From NCBI GenBank assembly GCA_019912395.1, contig JAIOIH010000014.1:204800-268799 (forward strand): a stretch of 64,000 bases of DNA, read 5' to 3'. A model generated the notes under the pieces. The model ran no database searches. It saw nothing but the letters and a program-made list of their open reading frames with translations, and had not been told where the DNA came from. Shown here in pieces: positions 364 through 53,605 of the stretch. Each line of letters begins with the position of its first letter. Positions within the stretch are counted from its first letter, which is position 1. Made by a program: the position numbers and the translations under genes. The stretch is from Flavobacteriales bacterium (GTDB taxonomy: Bacteria; Bacteroidota; Bacteroidia; Flavobacteriales_F; PHOS-HE28).

Positions 364-2190
364 ATGGCATCACGGCGAGGACGGCCCATCTTTGACGATG
401 AAGGCGCAAAACCGGCGAAGCTCAGCAAGGAGGCGCTGGCGAAGACCGCACGGTTGTTCCGTTACCTCAAACCGCACTTGGGGGCATTCGTGGCCGGGCT
501 GTTCTGCCTGTTGATCACCAGCCTGCTCAGTCTGGCCTTTCCACTGCTGCTGGGGAAGCTGGTGAATGCCACCACGTCTGACAGCTTTTGGTCAGCCTCG
601 CTCACTGACCTCACCAACATCGATTCCATCGCCAAGCTGCTGATGCTGGTCTTTGCGCTGCAAGCCGCTTTCGGTTTTTTGCGCATCTATCTTTTCGGTC
701 TCGTCTCGGAGAACGCCTTGGCCGATCTCCGTCAGGACACCTACGCACATCTGGTCCGCATGCCGATGCTCTTCTTCGCGCAGCGCCGTGTGGGCGAGCT
801 CAACAGCCGCATCAGCGCTGACGTGGCCCTTCTGCAGGTGGGCATGACCACCTCGCTTGCGGAGCTGCTCCGGCAATTGGTCACCATTGGCCTCGGTATC
901 ACCTTGCTCACATTCGTCAGTGTGCAGCTCACGCTCACCATGCTGGCCACGCTTCCGGTGGTGGCCCTGATCGCCGTGTTCTTCGGCAGCTACATCCGCA
1001 AGCTGAGCAAGCAGGTGCAGGACCGCATTGCGGACACCAATGTGATCGTGGACGAGACGCTGCAGGGCATCCAGAACGTGAAGGCGTTCAGCAATGAAGG
1101 CTTCGAGGTAGCACGGTACCGCTCCAGTGTGCTGAAGGCCCGCGACCTGGCGATGAAGGGCGTGAAATGGCGCGGGAGCTTCGTCTCCTTCATCATCTTC
1201 TGCATGTTCGGCGTGGTGGTCTTCATCATCTGGCGTGCCGTACACCTGCGTGCGGACGGGCTTTTGGACATGGGCGACATCACCGCCTTCCTCGGTCTAT
1301 CCATCATGATCGGCGCTTCCATCGCCAGTGTCCCGGACCTGATCACCACCATGCTCAAGGCCGTGGGCGCCACCGAACGGTTGATGGACATCCAGGATGG
1401 CAAGACCGAGGACATCGACCTGAAACCCCGGAAGGAGCAATTGAAGCTGGAAGGGGACATCGCCTTCGAGCATGTCTCCTTCCACTACGCCACTCGCCCG
1501 GACCATGCCGTGCTGCGTGACGTGCATTTCCACGCCAAGCCCGGTGAGCGGGTGGCGCTCGTAGGTCCCAGCGGTGCCGGCAAGAGCACCATCGCCTCCT
1601 TGATCCTGCGCTTTTACGATCCCGTAGGAGGGCGCATCACCATCGATGGAAAAGATGCCCGCGACTACGATCTCGGTGCATTGCGCGACCGCATGAGCAT
1701 CGTGCCGCAGGAAGTACTGCTCTTCGGCGGAACGATCCTGGAGAACATCGCGTACGGGAAGCCGGGAGCGTCCCGCGAGGCTATCGAGGCAGCCGCACGC
1801 AAGGCCAACGCGCACGAGTTCATCACATCGTTTCCCGAGGGCTATGCCACCATCGTGGGTGAACGCGGTATTCAGCTCAGCGGTGGCCAACGACAACGCA
1901 TCGCCATTGCACGTGCCGTGCTGAAGGACCCGGCTATCCTCATCCTCGACGAGGCCACCAGCGCACTCGATACCGCCAGCGAACGTATAGTGCAAGATGC
2001 CTTGGACAAGCTGATGGAAGGCCGCACCAGCATCGTGATCGCACACCGCCTCAGCACCGTGCGTAACGCGGACCGGATCCTGGTACTGGACCACGGCATG
2101 GTGACCGCCAGTGGCACGCATGATGAACTGATCGCGGATACGGGCGGCTTGTACTATTCATTGAGCAGGATGCAGTTGAGCGAAACGTAG
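364..2190 (+). CDS. ABC transporter, fused permease and ATPase (exporter type)
   Basis: A 608-residue half-transporter with an N-terminal six-helix membrane domain (about residues 30-310) and a C-terminal ATPase. The ATPase shows Walker A GPSGAGKST (about 401-409), the signature LSGGQ (505-509), Walker B ending in D529-E530 and an H-loop IAHRLST. Such proteins dimerise in the inner membrane and export lipids, peptides or drugs; the MsbA/BmrA-like layout fits, but the substrate cannot be told from sequence. A GTG at 343 would add seven residues, but it lies inside the hairpin at 323-346, so ATG 364 is preferred. It stands alone: the next genes are on the other strand. Confidence 0.9.
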   Translation: MASRRGRPIFDDEGAKPAKLSKEALAKTARLFRYLKPHLGAFVAGLFCLLITSLLSLAFPLLLGKLVNATTSDSFWSASLTDLTNIDSIAKLLMLVFALQAAFGFLRIYLFGLVSENALADLRQDTYAHLVRMPMLFFAQRRVGELNSRISADVALLQVGMTTSLAELLRQLVTIGLGITLLTFVSVQLTLTMLATLPVVALIAVFFGSYIRKLSKQVQDRIADTNVIVDETLQGIQNVKAFSNEGFEVARYRSSVLKARDLAMKGVKWRGSFVSFIIFCMFGVVVFIIWRAVHLRADGLLDMGDITAFLGLSIMIGASIASVPDLITTMLKAVGATERLMDIQDGKTEDIDLKPRKEQLKLEGDIAFEHVSFHYATRPDHAVLRDVHFHAKPGERVALVGPSGAGKSTIASLILRFYDPVGGRITIDGKDARDYDLGALRDRMSIVPQEVLLFGGTILENIAYGKPGASREAIEAAARKANAHEFITSFPEGYATIVGERGIQLSGGQRQRIAIARAVLKDPAILILDEATSALDTASERIVQDALDKLMEGRTSIVIAHRLSTVRNADRILVLDHGMVTASGTHDELIADTGGLYYSLSRMQLSET

Positions 2191-4353: not shown

Positions 4354-5447
4354 CGTTGGGGCTTGATGATGAGCGTGCTGAGATAAATGCAGGGGTCCAA
4401 AAGTAGGAACAGCCATTCCAGCGGCAGGGTTAGCCAAATAATGGCGCCTGCACCGAGCCTGCGCATGGCCAGCATGCAAATGGGCATGAAAATGAAGAGT
4501 TCGATGCACAGGCCGATCATCGCCGTGCGCGGATGGCCGGTGAACAGCAGGAAGAAGATGGTGGCCCACAGCACCAAGCGGGCCGTTGGCAGCAATGTGA
4601 GCAAAAGCTGGTGGCCGAAGCGGTAGAACTGCGCCGTGGTATAGTGCCTCCGCTTCCGGCGGAACCAAGTGGCGAGGTCGGGCGTGGCGCGCGTGGTCAT
4701 GTATGAGCCCTTGTCGGCGATGGCCGTGGTATTCTTGGCGCGGGCCACTTCATTGATGAAGAGGTCATCGTCCCCGCTCATCAATTGGCGGTGCCTCCGG
4801 TGGCCCTTCGCCTCGAAGAAGATGTCGCGCGTAAAGGCCATGTTGCGGCCCACGCCCATGTAGGGGAACCCGGCCTGCGCGAAGCTGATGTACTGCACGG
4901 CCTTGGTGAAACCATCGTAACGTTCGAGCAGGCTGGTGAGTCCCTCCTGCCGTTCGTAAGGACTGTGCGCGATCACGATCTGTTCACCGTCCTTGAAACC
5001 GGCGGCCATCAGGCTGATCCAATCGCGGCCGGTGGGCAGGCAATCGGCATCGGTAACGAGCACATGCGGATGCTTCGCGCTGCGCACCCCCACGCCGAGC
5101 GCGATCTTTTTGCCGTAGCTGAATTTCTCGTCCGCTTGGATGTTCACGGGCTTCAGGTTCGGGTATTGGGGCCTCATCCACTGCAGGATGTCCCAGGTAT
5201 CATCGTCGCTGCGATCGTTCACCACCACCAGCTCGAACTCCCGGTGGTCCTGGTCCATCAGCAGGGGAATGAGGTGTTGAAGGGCCGCGCTCTCGTTCCG
5301 GCCGCATACCACCACCGAAACAGGCCGGTCACGGTCCGGCTCCACTTCCTGCCGACGGAAGGCGAGCCGGCTGAAGATGGCCAGATGGAAGAACGCCAGC
5401 ACGAGGAGTGCGGCGGCCATGAGGTACAGGACGAAGGTGGCGATCAA
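4344..5447 (-). CDS. Membrane-anchored family 2 glycosyltransferase
   Basis: The 367 residues comprise an N-terminal membrane helix (1-25), a GT-A fold domain and three or four C-terminal helices (about 270-360). Visible motifs are VVVNDRSDDDT, the metal-binding VTDADC, a GDDDLFINE acceptor motif and RRKRRHYT, which corresponds to the Q/RxxRW position of processive GT2 enzymes. It should use a nucleotide sugar at the inner face of the membrane; donor and acceptor are unknown. The start is uncertain: position 5447 is TTG, and ATG 5420 (residue 10) would still keep the helix. The gene overlaps the downstream sigma factor gene. Confidence 0.85.
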   Translation of the reverse strand: MIATFVLYLMAAALLVLAFFHLAIFSRLAFRRQEVEPDRDRPVSVVVCGRNESAALQHLIPLLMDQDHREFELVVVNDRSDDDTWDILQWMRPQYPNLKPVNIQADEKFSYGKKIALGVGVRSAKHPHVLVTDADCLPTGRDWISLMAAGFKDGEQIVIAHSPYERQEGLTSLLERYDGFTKAVQYISFAQAGFPYMGVGRNMAFTRDIFFEAKGHRRHRQLMSGDDDLFINEVARAKNTTAIADKGSYMTTRATPDLATWFRRKRRHYTTAQFYRFGHQLLLTLLPTARLVLWATIFFLLFTGHPRTAMIGLCIELFIFMPICMLAMRRLGAGAIIWLTLPLEWLFLLLDPCIYLSTLIIKPQRWK

Positions 5448-46423: not shown

Positions 46424-47581
46424 ATGGAAATCGGAAGGCGGAAATACTTCGACGACCTGGACGCGTTGCGGTCCATTGCCTTCCTTGCAATTTTCATGCA
46501 TCATGGTTTTTTCACCACTGAACCTTCCGTGGTGGCCTCCTTTGCTTTCAAAGCGGTTGACGTGGTGACCAAACCGGCGTGGCTTGGTGTTCCGTTCTTC
46601 TTCTCCCTTAGTGGCTTCTTGATCACGTATTTGCTGCTCACGGAACAACAGCATCTCGGAAGGATAAGTGTCGGGAAGTTCTATGCCCGCCGAATTCTTC
46701 GGATCTGGCCTCTCTATTATGCGGTGGTGTGTTTCGGATTCTTCATTTTCCCGCTCCTGCGCGGATTGATCCTCCACGATCCATACGTCGAGAACGCAAC
46801 GCTGTGGAAGTACTTGGTATTCCTCGGGAACTTCGATATGATAGAAAAAGGACTCCCATATGGTGCCGGGCTGGGCGTGACCTGGTCCCTTTCCGTGGAA
46901 GAACAATTCTATCTCGTTTGGCCGATCCTGTTCATCCTTGTTCCAGTTATCCTTCGTGTTGCATTTGTCGTTCTGCTCTTTGCGCTGTCGCAGATCTTAA
47001 TGCAGGTTTGGGATCTTCCCTATACGCATACCTTGGGCAGCATGTCCGATCTGGCCATGGGCGCCTTGCTTGCGATCCTAAGCTTCGGAGAGAAACCCCT
47101 GTTCAAAAAGTTCACTGAGCTTCCCGGATCCGTGATCGCCGGGGTCTACGTTCTCGGGATCGCCCACCTGTATTCCTGGACGCTATATGATATTGGCAAC
47201 CGGGTATTCGTATCCTTCTTTATGGCCTTCGTGCTCTTTGACCAATGCTTTTGCAGGAACTCTCCATTGAAACTCCGTCGGTTCAAACTTCTGGGATACT
47301 GGGGGCGACTGACCTATGGATTGTATTTGCTGCACACGATCGGCAACTTCATCGTATCGAATGCCATCAAGCCGTTCAGGGCCCAGATCGACCATCCGCT
47401 GCTCATCGACATGGGAATTCAACCGGTTGCCTCACTGCTCCTCACCATGGGCATGGCCTATGTATCCTACTCCTATTATGAAAAGCCGTTCCTGAAGCTC
47501 AAAAGCAGATTCGCTACTACGGGCATCGCAAGGTCCGGGAATGCGACAACTTCGGCAGGACGACCTCCCATCTACCCATGA
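46424..47581 (+). CDS. Acyltransferase family 3 membrane protein
   Basis: 385 residues with about ten helices. DLDALRSIAFLAIFMHHGF (about 9-27) has the AT3 R and HH, and WLGVPFFFSLSGFLITYLL (about 47-65) is the second hallmark; WSLSVEEQFYLVWP (about 152-165) is the third. It probably adds an acyl group to a surface glycan. It is one of two AT3 genes in the region. Its 3' end overlaps the convergent rlmH stop by ten bases. Confidence 0.88.
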   Translation: MEIGRRKYFDDLDALRSIAFLAIFMHHGFFTTEPSVVASFAFKAVDVVTKPAWLGVPFFFSLSGFLITYLLLTEQQHLGRISVGKFYARRILRIWPLYYAVVCFGFFIFPLLRGLILHDPYVENATLWKYLVFLGNFDMIEKGLPYGAGLGVTWSLSVEEQFYLVWPILFILVPVILRVAFVVLLFALSQILMQVWDLPYTHTLGSMSDLAMGALLAILSFGEKPLFKKFTELPGSVIAGVYVLGIAHLYSWTLYDIGNRVFVSFFMAFVLFDQCFCRNSPLKLRRFKLLGYWGRLTYGLYLLHTIGNFIVSNAIKPFRAQIDHPLLIDMGIQPVASLLLTMGMAYVSYSYYEKPFLKLKSRFATTGIARSGNATTSAGRPPIYP

Positions 47582-48036
47582 TGATACCCCGTCCCCTTCA
47601 GAATGCTCAGCCCGCGATAGAGCTGCTCCGCAAAGAGCACGCGGATCAACTGGTGGGGGAAGACCATGGCTGAGATGGACAATACCAGGTCGGCGCGCTG
47701 GCGTACCTCCTCGGTCATTCCATGCGCGCCACCTATGACGAAGGCGATGTCGCGCACGCCTTGGTCGCGCCAATTGCCGAGGCGATGGGCGAAGGCGGGG
47801 CTGGTGAGCTGAATGCCGCGCTCATCCAGCACCACTACTTTTTCACCGGGCTTGAGGACGGCGAGGATACGCTCACTCTCCGTGCGCTGCTGCCAGGCGA
47901 CCTCCCCCCTGCCGGCATCGGGGAGCACCACCTCATCCACAGGTTCCATGCGGCGGACGCGCTCCAGATAATGCTGAAGGCCGTCAGCGACATGGCCACG
48001 CTCACTGCGCCCCACCACGATCAGGCGAAGGCGCAT
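47572..48036 (-). CDS. rlmH: 23S rRNA (pseudouridine1915-N3)-methyltransferase
   Basis: 154 residues of the SPOUT family. LDERGIQLTSPAFAHRL (about 70-86), FVIGGAHGM (about 98-106) and the C-terminal LSISAMVFPHQLIRVLFAEQLYRG and LKGTGYHH are diagnostic of RlmH (about 118-152). It methylates a pseudouridine that RluD makes, and rluD is in the same window. ATG 48036 is used; the longer upstream frame overlaps the DUF4783 gene. It converges on the acyltransferase gene with a ten-base overlap. Confidence 0.95.
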   Translation of the reverse strand: MRLRLIVVGRSERGHVADGLQHYLERVRRMEPVDEVVLPDAGRGEVAWQQRTESERILAVLKPGEKVVVLDERGIQLTSPAFAHRLGNWRDQGVRDIAFVIGGAHGMTEEVRQRADLVLSISAMVFPHQLIRVLFAEQLYRGLSILKGTGYHHG

Positions 48037-48109
48037 TCGACCACCGTTGTTCGTAACTCCTTTCCGTGCATGGGGCAAATGTGGCCCGTTCTTTGCAAAA
48101 TTGCTCCGC

Positions 48110-48523
48110 ATGCGACACTTCATCCTTAAAAGGACTTCCTTTTTTCTGGTCCTTCTGTTGGTCATGGGCGGGCTTCGGGCCCAAGGAGATGTGAAGGACC
48201 AAGTGGTCTCGGCCATCGGTTCGGGCAACGCGACCGCCTTGGCGAAGAACATGGTGGCCAATGTGGACATGACGCTGCCCTCGGCAAGCGATTACTACAG
48301 CAAGGCCCAAGCCGAACAGATCCTGCGGAAGTTCTTCGATGAACATCCACCCAAGGGCCTTTCCATCGTGCATGAAGGAACCAATCGCACTGGCGACAGT
48401 TACTACATTGGCAATCTGGCCACAGCGAAAGGTGATTTCCGGGTCACCTTCTTCCTGAAAAAGACGGGTGAGGCCTATCAAGTGAAACAGTTGAGAATAG
48501 AGGCTGGCAGAACGGACCGCTGA
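48110..48523 (+). CDS. Secreted DUF4783 protein
   Basis: 137 residues with a signal peptide (ILKRTSFFLVLLLVMGGLRAQ, cleavage about residue 24) and a single small alpha/beta domain: DVKDQVVSAIGSGNATALAK, then EQILRKFFDEHPPKGLSIVHEG. This matches DUF4783, an NTF2-like family usually next to nadC in Bacteroidota. Function unknown. It is coupled to nadC (TGATG) and divergent from rlmH. Confidence 0.87.
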   Translation: MRHFILKRTSFFLVLLLVMGGLRAQGDVKDQVVSAIGSGNATALAKNMVANVDMTLPSASDYYSKAQAEQILRKFFDEHPPKGLSIVHEGTNRTGDSYYIGNLATAKGDFRVTFFLKKTGEAYQVKQLRIEAGRTDR

Positions 48524-49368
48524 TGCTACCATTGGGAACGGAGGAGATCATTGACCGGGCCTTTGATGAGGATGTGGGCGATGGCGACCACACGTCCTTG
48601 GCCACCGTTCCGGGCACGGCAAAGGGTTCCGCGCATTTATTGGTAAAGGCGGACGGCATTCTGGCCGGTCTGGAGCTGGCCAAGGTCATCTGTGAGCGCA
48701 TCGACGAAGGGCTTCATTTGCGACCGCTGTTGCACGATGGTGCCCGGGTGAGCCCTGGCGACGTTGCGTTCACCATCAACGGCAGCTCCCGGAGCATCCT
48801 GCTGGTGGAGCGTGTGATGCTGAACTTCATGCAGCGCATGAGCGGCATTGCCACCCTTACGCGTGCCTTCGTGGACGCCTTGGAAGGAACGAAGTGCAGC
48901 GTGCTGGACACCCGCAAGACCACGCCCGGGTTGCGCGCGATCGAGAAGTGGGCCGTTCGCATCGGTGGCGGAACCAACCACCGCCTCGGTTTGTATGACA
49001 TGATGATGATCAAGGACAACCACGCGGATTTCGCGGGTGGGATCCCGCAGGCCATTACGCGGGCGATGGCCTATCAGCGTGAACACGGTCTCTCCATACC
49101 GATCGAGGTGGAGACCCGCAATCTCATCGAGGTGGGACAGGTCCTTTCCGTTGGAGGCGTTCATCGCATCATGCTGGACAATTTCGACCTCGACGATCTG
49201 CACGAGGCCGTTAGGCTGATCGGAGGCCGCTTCGAGACCGAGGCCAGCGGCGGTATTACCCTGGCCACCGCCCGTTCCCATGCCGCATGTGGCGTGGACT
49301 TCATCTCCGTGGGCGCGTTGACGCATTCGGCGGTCAGCCTGGACATGAGCCTGAAAGCCATGGGTTGA
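48523..49368 (+). CDS. nadC: Nicotinate-nucleotide diphosphorylase (carboxylating)
   Basis: 281 residues. It converts quinolinate and PRPP to nicotinate mononucleotide in de novo NAD synthesis. Visible are EDVGDGDHTS near residues 12-21, VLDTRKTTPGLRAIEKWAVR (about 127-146), GGGTNHRLGLYDMMMIKDNH and the late EASGGITLAT (about 243-252). It overlaps the upstream DUF4783 gene and the downstream YihY gene by one base each (TGATG). No other NAD genes are in the window. Confidence 0.95.
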   Translation: MLPLGTEEIIDRAFDEDVGDGDHTSLATVPGTAKGSAHLLVKADGILAGLELAKVICERIDEGLHLRPLLHDGARVSPGDVAFTINGSSRSILLVERVMLNFMQRMSGIATLTRAFVDALEGTKCSVLDTRKTTPGLRAIEKWAVRIGGGTNHRLGLYDMMMIKDNHADFAGGIPQAITRAMAYQREHGLSIPIEVETRNLIEVGQVLSVGGVHRIMLDNFDLDDLHEAVRLIGGRFETEASGGITLATARSHAACGVDFISVGALTHSAVSLDMSLKAMG

Positions 49369-50318
49369 TGGCCGGACCCCTGGTAAGAAAAATCCTGTAC
49401 TCGCGGACCAACCGAAGGGTGATCAAGTGGATGCAGCAGATCGTGCTTCCGGGTTTCGGGGGCTTCAGTATCTACCATATTTCGAGGTTCTTCTTCCATG
49501 CCCTCTTTCAAGGCAATCTGGTGAACCGCGCCGCCGCCATCGCCTTTCGCATATTCCTGGCGTTCTTCCCTGCCATCATCGTACTGCTCACGCTGATCCC
49601 GTTCATCCCCGTACCGGATTTCCAGGAGAAGCTCCTGGGGGCGTTCCGCAACATGCTCCCCGGCGAGGTCTATCACTTCATTGAGGGCCTGCTCCACGAC
49701 CTGGTGTTGCGCAAGCACAGTGCATTGCTCAGCCTCAGCTTCGTGTTCGGCCTCTTCCTGGCGAGCAATAGCGTGAATGCCGTGCTTCAGGGCTTCCAGC
49801 ACAGCACGTTCGTGACGGAATGGTACCAACCGTGGAAGCAACGTCTCATCAGCCTGCTCCTGATGTTCCTGCTGACCCTGCTCTCCGTAGTGGCCACGGC
49901 CGTGCTCACCATCAGTTCGTGGGGCCGGTCGCTGATCCATCAGGGTACCGATGGCTTCCACTGGCTGGAAAGCGTTGGGTTCGGCATTGTGCGCTGGGCA
50001 ACCTCGGTCATGTTGGTGCTGGTGGCCGTATCCCTGCTCTACCACGCGGGCACGCCCGGCAAGAAGAAATTCCAATTGGTGACACCCGGGGCCGTGCTCA
50101 CCATCATTCTCATTTTCGCCCTCTCCCGCGCCTTGGCCTTCGTCTTCACCAACGTTACCGACTACAATGCGCTTTACGGCTCCATCGGCGTGATCATCGC
50201 CGTGCAGTTGTGGCTCTACTTCAATATGATCGTGCTGCTGATCGGCTACGAGCTGAACACGAGCATTGACAAGGCCCGGCGCGAGCACAGCCGCGATCTG
50301 AGGCCCGTGAAGGCATGA
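49368..50318 (+). CDS. YihY/BrkB-family inner-membrane protein
   Basis: 316 residues with six membrane helices. The NRAAAIAFRIFLAFFPAII stretch (about 57-75), the TPGKKKFQLVTPGAVL segment (about 228-243) and the last helix IGVIIAVQLWLYFNMIVLLIG are typical of YihY/BrkB. The family has been called ribonuclease BN, but the sequence is a membrane protein of unclear role. It is coupled to nadC. Confidence 0.88.
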   Translation: MAGPLVRKILYSRTNRRVIKWMQQIVLPGFGGFSIYHISRFFFHALFQGNLVNRAAAIAFRIFLAFFPAIIVLLTLIPFIPVPDFQEKLLGAFRNMLPGEVYHFIEGLLHDLVLRKHSALLSLSFVFGLFLASNSVNAVLQGFQHSTFVTEWYQPWKQRLISLLLMFLLTLLSVVATAVLTISSWGRSLIHQGTDGFHWLESVGFGIVRWATSVMLVLVAVSLLYHAGTPGKKKFQLVTPGAVLTIILIFALSRALAFVFTNVTDYNALYGSIGVIIAVQLWLYFNMIVLLIGYELNTSIDKARREHSRDLRPVKA

Positions 50319-50419
50319 GGCTGCCCTTCGCAGGGAGGAATTGGGAGAATACCCGCCCCGATCGGATAATTTGCACCCGGACCCGGTCGGCGTTCATGTA
50401 CGACCGTCCCGGGAATGCC

Positions 50420-53400
50420 ATGAGGAGATCAACACTGCTGCTCTGTGTACTGATGGCCGGTGCCGCCTTCGCGCAGCGCTATGACCCCTTGCATCCACCG
50501 AACACTTTCCGCCAGGCGGACAACCCCTACTACTGGAAGAACGCCCCGCCCTATCCCGGCTATTGGCAGCAGGATGTCCACTATGCCATGGATGCGAAGC
50601 TGGACGAGGTGCATGACCGGGTCGGGGGCACCGTCAACCTTACCTACTGGAACAACTCCCCGGACACGCTTCGGGAGGTCTTCTTCCACCTCTACGCCAA
50701 CGCCGCCAAGCCCGGCAGCTACATGGAGCAGCTCGGCGGGGACAACCGGGCAAGGGGTTCCGCCGAAAACCAGGACAGGGAGCGCGGTACCGATGTGCAG
50801 AGCATGACCGTGAACGGGCAGGAGGTGCGGCGTGAAGTGGACAACACCATCATGAAGGTGACGCTGCCGGAGCCGCTTCTTCCCAACGGAAAGGTCAGTT
50901 TCCACTACACCTTCGTCACGCACTGGGGCGGCATGGGCCGCATGAAGCTCTTCAGCGCATGGGGCTTCAAGCACTTCGACGGCACGCAATGGTACCCGCG
51001 CATCAGTGTGTATGACCGCAAGTTCGGCTGGGACACCCAGCAGCACCTCGGGCACGAGTTCCATGGCAACTTCGGCACCTTCGACGTGGCGCTGGACATG
51101 CCGAACGACATGGTGGTGGAAGCCACCGGCTGGCTGCAGAACCCGGACGAGGTGATGCCCTCCGAGCTGCGCAAGAAGCTCGACATCGCCAACTTCAAGG
51201 ACAAGCCCTGGAACGAGGCACCCTCCGTGATCACGCCCTACCAGCCCGGCGTGCGCAAGGTGTGGAAGTACCACGCGGAGAACCTGCATGACTTCGCCTT
51301 CACAGCGGATCCCACCTACCGCATCGATGAAACCGAATGGAACGGCATCGCCTGCATTGCGGTGGTGCAGGAACCGCATGCAAGCAAATGGTTGAACGCT
51401 GCCACATACTGCGCCAAGGTGATCCAAGTGTTCAGTGAGGGGATCGGCATGTACGGCTATCCCAAAATGGTGGTGGCCGATGCGCGCGATGGCATGGAAT
51501 ACCCGATGTTGACCCTGGACAGCGGTAGCGACCCCGGCTACCGGAACCTGTTCGCACATGAGATCGGCCACAACTGGTTCTTCGGGATGGTGGGCAACAA
51601 CGAGACCTACCGCGCGATGCTCGATGAAGGCTTCACCCAGTTCCTGACCGCTTGGGGGCTGGAGCAGATCGATGGGGACACCATGGTGACCACGCCGGCG
51701 AAAACCGCCTATGAGCAACGATACACGGACCCGGTGCTGGCGCGCGACCGCTCCGTGTACAACAGCTACATGCGCAGCGCCGTGCGCGATGAGCTCGCCC
51801 CGATCAACACGCACAGCGACGAATTCTCACGCCTTCCCACCGGATACCGCTTGGTGTACTTCAAGACCGCCACCATGCTTTACAACCTCGAGTATGTGCT
51901 GGGCGATGAACTCTTCATGGCCGCGTTCCGGAACTATTTCGAGCAGTGGAAATACAAGCATCCCTATGTGGAGGACTTCCGGCAGAGCATGATCGACTAC
52001 ACGAAAGTGGACCTCAACTGGTTCTTCGACCAGTGGATCGACACGGACAAGCGCATCGACTACGCCGTGAAGGGCGTGAAGCACCGCAACGCCGACCAAG
52101 GCCAGCAGATCCGCTTCAGGCGTATCGGCGACCTGCAAATGCCGATCGACTTTTCCGTTTTGGCGCGCAACGGACAGACCTACGATTTCCACATCCCGAA
52201 CAACTGGTTCGAGAAGAAGACCAGTGCCACCGTGCTTCCGCGATGGATCGGTTTTGATGAACTGCAACGCGACTATACCGCCACAGTGAACATCCCCTCG
52301 GGAATCGCGGACGTGCGCATCGACACCACCTATCGCCTCGGTGATGCCAACATGCTGAACAACAGCCTGAAGTTCCCCTTCACCAGCACCTTCGACAGCC
52401 ACATCCACAACTGGCCGGACTGGCGGACCTATGAAGGCTTTGTCCGGCCCGACCTTTGGTACAACGGCTATGACGGGGTGAAGGTCGGCGTGCACTTCCA
52501 CGGCAGCTACCTCGAGTACAAGCACAAGCTGTGGTTCACCGCATGGCTGAACACGGGCTTCGGGCAGAACCTTCCCGGAGCCGGGATCAACACCGCCTAC
52601 GACCCCATCAGCTTCAATTTCCGCTATGAAAATGCCACGGAGAAACTGCTCCACGGCTCTTCCGTTCATGTGGCTGCGCGCGTGCTGGACGGCCTGGAAC
52701 AATATGAGGGCGGATTCAACTGGGACGTGCCATTTTCCAACACCTCATTCCACACGAACATGAAGTTCATGTTGCGGCGGGACAGCTCGGCCCTCACCTA
52801 CTTGATCTACCCGGACAGCTGGGAGGTGAACGCGCTCAACAGCACGTGGAACACCGGCGCGAAGCACCGCTATGGCTGGCGGAAAGGCAATGGCACACTG
52901 GGACTTGAGATGCGCACGGCAGGGATCGGCGCCGTCAACTCCTTCGCACAAGTTGCCGGAACGGCGAAGAACAACTCACGCTTTGGAAAGTTGAACCTGC
53001 GCACGCGCCTCTTCGCGCAATACGGCAGCGGCACCACGCCGCGCGAAAGTCAACTCCACCTCGCTGGCGCCTCACCGGAGGAAATGATGGACGACAAGTA
53101 TGTGCGTAGCATCGGCTTTGTTCCTTTTGACTGGATGGGCTACGGCGCGGACGTGAACCACTTCCAGCAGGGAGGTGGCTTGGGACTGCGCGGCTATGCG
53201 GGCTACTACGCGCCCTCGCTGGATGGGGAAGGCAACACCATCCTCACTTACGCGGGCAACACCGGGGCGGCCATCAATGCTGAACTGGACCTCGACGGGC
53301 TTGTGCGCTTCCGCCCCGGCAAACTGGCGCAATACCTGCACCTGGACGTCTATCTCTTCGGTGATGTCGGCACCATGGGCTACCGCACCACCACCGAGCT

Positions 53401-53605
53401 CGGCACACCCCAGATCAAGCTCGCCCTGCCCCGCTCGGACGCCGGTGCCGGCGTGGCGCTCACCATCAAAAAGTTCGGCCCCTTGCAGGACATCAAACCA
53501 CTGACGATCCGCTTTGACATGCCGCTGGTGCTGTCCAATATCCCCACCGGGGAGACCGAGCATTTTGCGTTCCGGTATGTGGTGGGGGTGGGAAGGAGTT
53601 TTTGA
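50420..53605 (+). CDS. M1 metallopeptidase with Omp85-like C-terminal barrel
   Basis: 1061 residues with a signal peptide (STLLLCVLMAGAAFAQ), a gluzincin M1 domain with HEIGH (380-384) and the third zinc ligand in DEGF (E403, giving HExxH-18-E), and a long C-terminal half. That half (about 660-1061) is a series of alternating strands ending in aromatic residues. It includes GLGLRGYAGYY (923-926 = LRGY), like the VRGF/LRGY barrel motif of BamA/Omp85, and a final Phe after FRYVVGVGRSF. It may be an outer-membrane-anchored aminopeptidase. The upstream extension to 50315 is not supported; ATG 50396 is an alternative. Confidence 0.88.
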   Translation: MRRSTLLLCVLMAGAAFAQRYDPLHPPNTFRQADNPYYWKNAPPYPGYWQQDVHYAMDAKLDEVHDRVGGTVNLTYWNNSPDTLREVFFHLYANAAKPGSYMEQLGGDNRARGSAENQDRERGTDVQSMTVNGQEVRREVDNTIMKVTLPEPLLPNGKVSFHYTFVTHWGGMGRMKLFSAWGFKHFDGTQWYPRISVYDRKFGWDTQQHLGHEFHGNFGTFDVALDMPNDMVVEATGWLQNPDEVMPSELRKKLDIANFKDKPWNEAPSVITPYQPGVRKVWKYHAENLHDFAFTADPTYRIDETEWNGIACIAVVQEPHASKWLNAATYCAKVIQVFSEGIGMYGYPKMVVADARDGMEYPMLTLDSGSDPGYRNLFAHEIGHNWFFGMVGNNETYRAMLDEGFTQFLTAWGLEQIDGDTMVTTPAKTAYEQRYTDPVLARDRSVYNSYMRSAVRDELAPINTHSDEFSRLPTGYRLVYFKTATMLYNLEYVLGDELFMAAFRNYFEQWKYKHPYVEDFRQSMIDYTKVDLNWFFDQWIDTDKRIDYAVKGVKHRNADQGQQIRFRRIGDLQMPIDFSVLARNGQTYDFHIPNNWFEKKTSATVLPRWIGFDELQRDYTATVNIPSGIADVRIDTTYRLGDANMLNNSLKFPFTSTFDSHIHNWPDWRTYEGFVRPDLWYNGYDGVKVGVHFHGSYLEYKHKLWFTAWLNTGFGQNLPGAGINTAYDPISFNFRYENATEKLLHGSSVHVAARVLDGLEQYEGGFNWDVPFSNTSFHTNMKFMLRRDSSALTYLIYPDSWEVNALNSTWNTGAKHRYGWRKGNGTLGLEMRTAGIGAVNSFAQVAGTAKNNSRFGKLNLRTRLFAQYGSGTTPRESQLHLAGASPEEMMDDKYVRSIGFVPFDWMGYGADVNHFQQGGGLGLRGYAGYYAPSLDGEGNTILTYAGNTGAAINAELDLDGLVRFRPGKLAQYLHLDVYLFGDVGTMGYRTTTELGTPQIKLALPRSDAGAGVALTIKKFGPLQDIKPLTIRFDMPLVLSNIPTGETEHFAFRYVVGVGRSF

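Follow-up and report, generated by a model that had tools for sequence, protein, structure and literature searches.

The window, the whole stretch of 64,000 nucleotides that we analyzed, contains an intact open reading frame on the + strand (stop codon at 53603-53605) whose product joins an M1 peptidase to a predicted outer membrane barrel (Table 1). The original prediction had placed the gene at 50420-53605, and we kept these boundaries. The earliest ATG of the frame lies at 50315 and would give 1096 amino acids. We took 50420 as the start instead (MRRSTLLLCVLMAGAAFA|Q, 1061 amino acids), because orthologues begin at this position with a typical signal peptide and a promoter-like element sits between the two sites. 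This putative promoter element (TAATTTGC) comes near the Bacteroidota -7 pattern in sequence, and -7-like elements (TAATTTG, TAACTTGG, TATCTTGG, TACTTTG) are present 11-55 nt 5' of the start in most orthologues from the same genus. Upstream of the fusion gene (window 47572-50318) lie rlmH on the - strand, a DUF4783-like gene, nadC, and yihY/brkB. Roughly one in three fetched loci has kept this Flavobacteriales-type rlmH-DUF4783-nadC-yihY neighborhood. When clustering the neighborhoods of 80 loci, we observed only this housekeeping arrangement in one lineage, no functional partner, and no genomic link to components of BAM or TAM. At the N-terminus of the protein, the residue after the predicted signal peptide, Gln19, is invariant across 71 aligned orthologues. 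Substrates of signal peptidase I in Bacteroidetes follow a Q-rule, with Gln after the signal peptide cleavage site (PMC5837995), and predicted cleavage before the invariant Gln19 fits this rule.

Table 1. Features of the M1-Omp85 fusion gene and its product, in window coordinates.
Feature	Residues	Position	Strand	Basis
Putative Bacteroidota-type -7 promoter element (TAATTTGC)		50367..50374	+	Upstream of 50420; inference only
M1 peptidase-Omp85 barrel fusion protein, 1061 aa	1-1061	50420..53605	+	ORF, 71-orthologue alignment, AlphaFold2 model
Predicted Sec/SPI signal peptide (MRRSTLLLCVLMAGAAFA), then Gln19	1-18	50420..50473	+	Sequence
Three-domain M1 module	52-634	50573..52321	+	PF01433 match, structural matches
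HEIGH zinc/catalytic motif	380-384	51557..51571	+	H380, E381, H384 invariant (71/71)
Third zinc ligand E403	403	51626..51628	+	Invariant (71/71)
Candidate catalytic tyrosine Y480 (VYxK context)	480	51857..51859	+	Invariant (71/71); assigned by motif, inferred
16-stranded Omp85-type barrel	671-1061	52430..53602	+	AlphaFold2 strands, Foldseek, VIA-align, profiles
Barrel strands 1-6	671-682, 686-697, 701-711, 730-739, 747-756, 759-769			
Barrel strands 7-11	775-785, 807-820, 823-834, 842-855, 858-871			
Barrel strands 12-16	949-957, 973-991, 1005-1016, 1028-1038, 1054-1057			
Long loop (77 residues) between strands 11 and 12	872-948	53033..53263	+	Omp85 loop L6 position; model secondary structure
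LRGY motif	923-926	53186..53197	+	Counterpart of the Omp85 V/I-RG-F/Y motif

The M1 module consists of beta domain I, thermolysin-like domain II, and beta-sandwich domain III (residues 548-634). A Pfam scan of the whole protein matched PF01433 (Peptidase_M1; E 4.7e-17, 62.8 bits against a cut-off of 27.7), found nothing else above its own cut-off, and gave no patatin-like domain. In structural alignments with VIA-align, the module matched the tricorn-interacting factor F3 with Z 29.3 and IRAP, ERAP1, and LTA4H with Z 28-29. A normal M1 domain with HEIGH and then E403 had been expected from the sequence, and this is what we found: the spacing is HEXXH-(18)-E, with E403 located 18 residues past HEIGH, and it is invariant in all 71 orthologues. 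E360 is likewise invariant (71/71). It belongs to the GxMEN exopeptidase motif, which reads D-G-M-E-Y; Met359-Glu360 are kept and invariant, and the flanking Gly and Asn are replaced. By sequence or model, the protein is an M1 peptidase whose zinc site is intact. LTA4 hydrolase, ColAP, aminopeptidase N, and IRAP/ERAP share with it the three-domain core and the HEXXH-18-E zinc site, but they carry a helical C-terminal domain, whereas the fusion protein has a membrane barrel and D-G-M-E-Y in place of GxMEN. In the model, the barrel occupies the place of the alpha-helical domain IV of four-domain M1 enzymes.

The original prediction described a C-terminal part of about 400 residues with outer membrane character, carrying an LRGY motif near residue 924 and a terminal Phe and recalling BamA/TamA-type barrels. 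AlphaFold2 gave confident models of the whole protein, built on a 71-row alignment (pLDDT 88.0, pTM 0.85), and of residues 641-1061 alone (pLDDT 91.5, pTM 0.87). The secondary structure of the whole-protein model has 16 barrel strands between residues 671 and 1057, so the outer membrane assignment stood and its extent was refined: residues 548-634 belong to M1 domain III, the part outside the M1 module comprises about 390-410 residues, and the barrel proper begins at about residue 671. A soluble beta-sandwich, considered for the C-terminus, is ruled out by the confident barrel model. The linker that connects the M1 module (about 580 residues) with the barrel is modeled at high confidence. There is no POTRA domain in the model; the segment 548-634 is all beta, and since it forms M1 domain III and strand 1 follows within 40 residues, no room is left for one. 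The M1 module of the model thus stands where other Omp85 proteins carry POTRA domains.

Foldseek searches against the PDB pointed to the same family, and every one of the best 50 matches listed was a BamA or a TamA, with E from 4.6e-9. VIA-align superposed the barrel on BamA of D. radiodurans (8xnb) with Z 20.0 (296 residues aligned, rmsd 4.2 Å), on fungal Sam50 with Z 19.9, and on BamA of F. johnsoniae with Z 19.2; identity to the BamA/TamA/TamL/Sam50 group in the structural alignments is about 9-15%. In BamA, an RG(F/Y) motif sits in loop L6, which connects strands 11 and 12. The LRGY motif of the fusion protein falls inside the corresponding long loop, with strands 11 and 12 on either side, and among the 71 orthologues R924 is invariant and G925 and Y926 are nearly so. 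The terminal Phe is Phe1061. We regard the architecture and fold, an M1 enzyme followed by a 16-stranded Omp85-type barrel, as practically certain.

Sequence comparison of the barrel with Omp85 profiles gave a weak direct signal and a strong indirect one. Pfam and NCBIfam matched no family in the C-terminus alone, and searches of PDB sequences with the barrel, by phmmer and by profile, returned no relative. The Pfam Omp85 model PF01103 matched none of 44 orthologues and none of five further M1-barrel proteins. In a single profile-profile comparison with the barrels of Bacteroidota TamL, the score was 42.0 (p 1.3e-4; reversed-profile decoys at most 22.6), and a direct comparison with BamA alone did not rise above decoys. 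We then used a bridging alignment of 12 C-termini from M1-barrel proteins of other families in the phylum. In single comparisons, its profile matched this barrel at 6.8e-36 and the pooled Bacteroidota Omp85 profile at 9.8e-10; it matched BamA at 6.2e-7, and reversed decoys in the bridge comparison scored at most 22. The barrel and these distant relatives have in common RGY (VRGY in several relatives), FxDxG, DAGxG, and the terminal strand, though not every motif occurs in all 12. By the profile bridge and the predicted fold, the barrel is an Omp85 relative, although the Pfam Omp85 model misses it. It is extremely improbable that the barrel is just an anchor in the membrane that descends from some outer membrane barrel other than Omp85: the missing Pfam matches in all 44 members and the BamA-only comparison would be expected of such an anchor, but 16 strands, Z scores of about 20 to BamA and Sam50, the shared motifs including LRGY/VRGY at the L6 position, and the bridge to Omp85 would not.

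We analyzed the distribution of the fusion in related genomes; similar fusions had been thought possible in Bacteroidota. The relatives search covered 39 genomes, including the window's own. Each had one or more M1 matches, and 33 encoded a full-length or near full-length orthologue. In the other six, the match was broken at a contig end (G009), the protein had an altered form (G023 and G026), or only other M1 proteins were present (G014, G035, and G037). Within an even sample of the class Bacteroidia (395 genomes, 196 genera), the barrel is present in 204 genomes from 87 genera, nearly always in a single copy, and orthologue frames in the class mostly measure about 1050-1120 aa. Named records with the orthologue are mostly metagenome-assembled genomes of Flavobacteriales and Chitinophagales, plus the isolate Taibaiella soli. 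Several other families outside Bacteroidia encode proteins of 990-1146 aa with an M1 domain and a similar C-terminus. A plasmid search identified no plasmid holding most of the query. The M1-Omp85 arrangement is therefore found well beyond the genome in which it was predicted and is kept across much of the phylum Bacteroidota. Chance cannot account for an architecture of about 1060 residues that is shared whole by hundreds of genomes, and it is no local accident.

The window genome encodes a second M1 protein of 1044 aa on contig C24 (L118:1102-4236, - strand). Its C-terminus scored 39.2 against the profile of this barrel and 35.8 against pooled Omp85 (controls at most 17.6), and it has no RGY motif; orthologues of it, about 1000 aa long, are widespread in Bacteroidia. 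The same genome also encodes a soluble M1 protein of 618 aa (L119). In a tree of 43 M1 domains, each barrel type in the class formed one clade and the soluble forms fell among the barrel-bearing ones. The simplest reading of this tree would be an old M1-Omp85 fusion whose barrel was lost later in the soluble forms; with a midpoint root and only 43 sequences, repeated gain of the barrel is possible. Some lineages have retained the barrel without the enzyme. The proteins of G023 (L121:616-3657, - strand) and G577 (L191), both from one large-genome family, have lost HEXXH and kept the barrel with RGY and form an apparent pseudo-enzyme clade. In G026, a 606-aa protein adjoining nadC (L120:600-2420, - strand) has kept the barrel and lost the M1 catalytic domain, and other sampled genomes of this family have the full protein. 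Because the barrel persists in all three proteins although HEXXH or the M1 catalytic domain is gone, something besides peptidase activity appears to be selected in some lineages, and this argues that the barrel is more than a passive anchor where the enzyme was dropped.

The N and C termini of an even-stranded Omp85 barrel both lie on the periplasmic side, which would place the M1 module in the periplasm. Indeed, the enzyme domain of PlpD, also an enzyme-Omp85 fusion, is exclusively periplasmic (PMC11116518), and on the strength of topology and this analogy we consider a periplasmic orientation highly likely. Our favored and, on balance, probable explanation is that the protein is a predicted M1 metallo-aminopeptidase that is anchored in the outer membrane and works on the periplasmic side, trimming peptides as they come in. 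After export by Sec and cleavage of the signal peptide before Gln19, BAM would insert the barrel into the outer membrane, and the M1 module, N-terminal to strand 1, would hang in the periplasm close beneath the membrane. There it would most likely clip residues off the N terminus of peptides arriving through the outer membrane, and the trimmed peptides would be taken up across the inner membrane. In Porphyromonas gingivalis, oligopeptides enter the periplasm, likely via RagAB, and exopeptidases trim them before uptake (PMC8048996). A trimming step of this type in the periplasm would suit an aminopeptidase tethered beneath the outer membrane. The partial conservation of the GxMEN motif speaks against this explanation, as do the related proteins that kept the barrel after losing HEXXH or the M1 catalytic domain, and the genome gives no hint of a role in peptide uptake because no conserved partner was seen beyond the rlmH-DUF4783-nadC-yihY neighborhood. 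The chances that peptide nutrition is the main function appear about even.

Alternatively, the protein could be an envelope quality-control or assembly factor in which the barrel keeps an Omp85-like role beside BAM or TAM and the M1 part, in place of POTRA domains, acts on the N termini of exported and outer membrane proteins by binding or trimming them. The barrel is a true relative of Omp85, and the pseudo-enzyme and enzyme-less forms retain it, as such a factor might. In addition, N-terminal pyroglutamate stabilizes exported proteins of Bacteroidetes, presumably by keeping aminopeptidases off (PMC10653852), so that one with access to them should exist. However, the zinc site is invariant in the great majority of orthologues, which means that catalysis matters in most lineages, neither a physical nor a genomic link to components of BAM or TAM was seen, and about half of the sampled Bacteroidia have no orthologue, as would not be expected of core machinery. 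We consider this alternative unlikely. A link of the M1-Omp85 proteins to the Bacteroidota Q-rule is plausible. A study from 2023 makes the case that exported proteins of Bacteroidetes owe their protection from aminopeptidases to pyroglutamate (PMC10653852), and the M1-Omp85 proteins are specific candidates for the periplasmic aminopeptidases, so far without names, that have been called on to explain the Q-rule. In the most far-reaching version, which we regard as rather improbable, they would form an ancient Bacteroidota module in which an aminopeptidase replaced POTRA, surveys or trims the N termini of exported and outer membrane proteins, and is among the enzymes that make the Q-rule pyroglutamate necessary. 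Still less likely is a surface-exposed aminopeptidase, moved through or past the barrel like the passenger of an autotransporter and digesting extracellular peptides; a 2014 survey gives such an early model for patatin-Omp85 proteins, first proposed for PlpD (PMC4104836), but the PlpD enzyme domain stays in the periplasm (PMC11116518), and here a folded M1 module is confidently linked to the barrel and no passenger features were seen. We thus prefer the periplasm-facing aminopeptidase.

Omp85 proteins are known mainly as machines for protein insertion and translocation. BamA, TamA/TamL, and Sam50 share with the fusion protein the barrel fold, the number of strands, the RG(F/Y) of L6, and the C-terminal signature, but they carry POTRA domains and no enzyme, and members of the BamA, TamA, FhaC, and PlpD subfamilies have one or more POTRA domains ahead of the barrel. 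The closest parallels are the patatin-Omp85 proteins PlpD and FplA (type Vd), in which, as here, a single chain carries an enzyme followed by a 16-stranded Omp85 barrel, with the enzyme expected on the periplasmic side (PMC11116518). PlpD is, however, a homodimer of a patatin-like lipase with a POTRA domain (PMC11116518), whereas the present protein has an M1 zinc peptidase and no POTRA. PlpD showed that the Omp85 scaffold can carry an enzyme, and the M1-Omp85 proteins add a peptidase-carrying family without POTRA.

We take PF00149 to be the family of calcineurin-like metallophosphoesterases. Omp85 proteins, a superfamily defined by its barrel, were divided into ten subfamilies by Heinz and Lithgow (2014, PMC4104836), whose accessible text names forms with WD40, patatin, 'Metallo' (PF00149), lipoprotein, or no N-terminus and does not name M1. 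Their 'Metallo' and 'noNterm' subfamilies have, as here, a barrel without POTRA, but the N-terminal metal-dependent domain of the former is defined by PF00149 and not by Peptidase_M1, according to the same text (PMC4104836). PF00149 is called a metalloprotease domain there; if it is the phosphoesterase family, this part of the survey in fact contains no peptidase-Omp85 fusion. A full-text literature search, with subscription papers outside its coverage, found no description of an M1- or aminopeptidase-Omp85 fusion. Hence, this enzyme-bearing Omp85 protein is apparently undescribed so far. The family is widespread in one phylum yet missed by the standard Pfam Omp85 model, and because Pfam and NCBIfam see the M1 domain only, its members are likely annotated simply as M1 metallopeptidases, with a large set of outer membrane proteins probably mis-located in annotation.

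Some gene copies were irregular. The orthologue at L180 (1-870 and 874-2757) is broken in two by a stop or a shift of frame, through either an assembly error or decay of the gene, and contig ends are at least partly responsible for the short frames in G548 and G446. In genome G004, an extra copy of the gene's last 38 codons, 84% identical to the query, sits downstream of the intact gene at a distance of a few hundred bases (L008, about 5112-5225).
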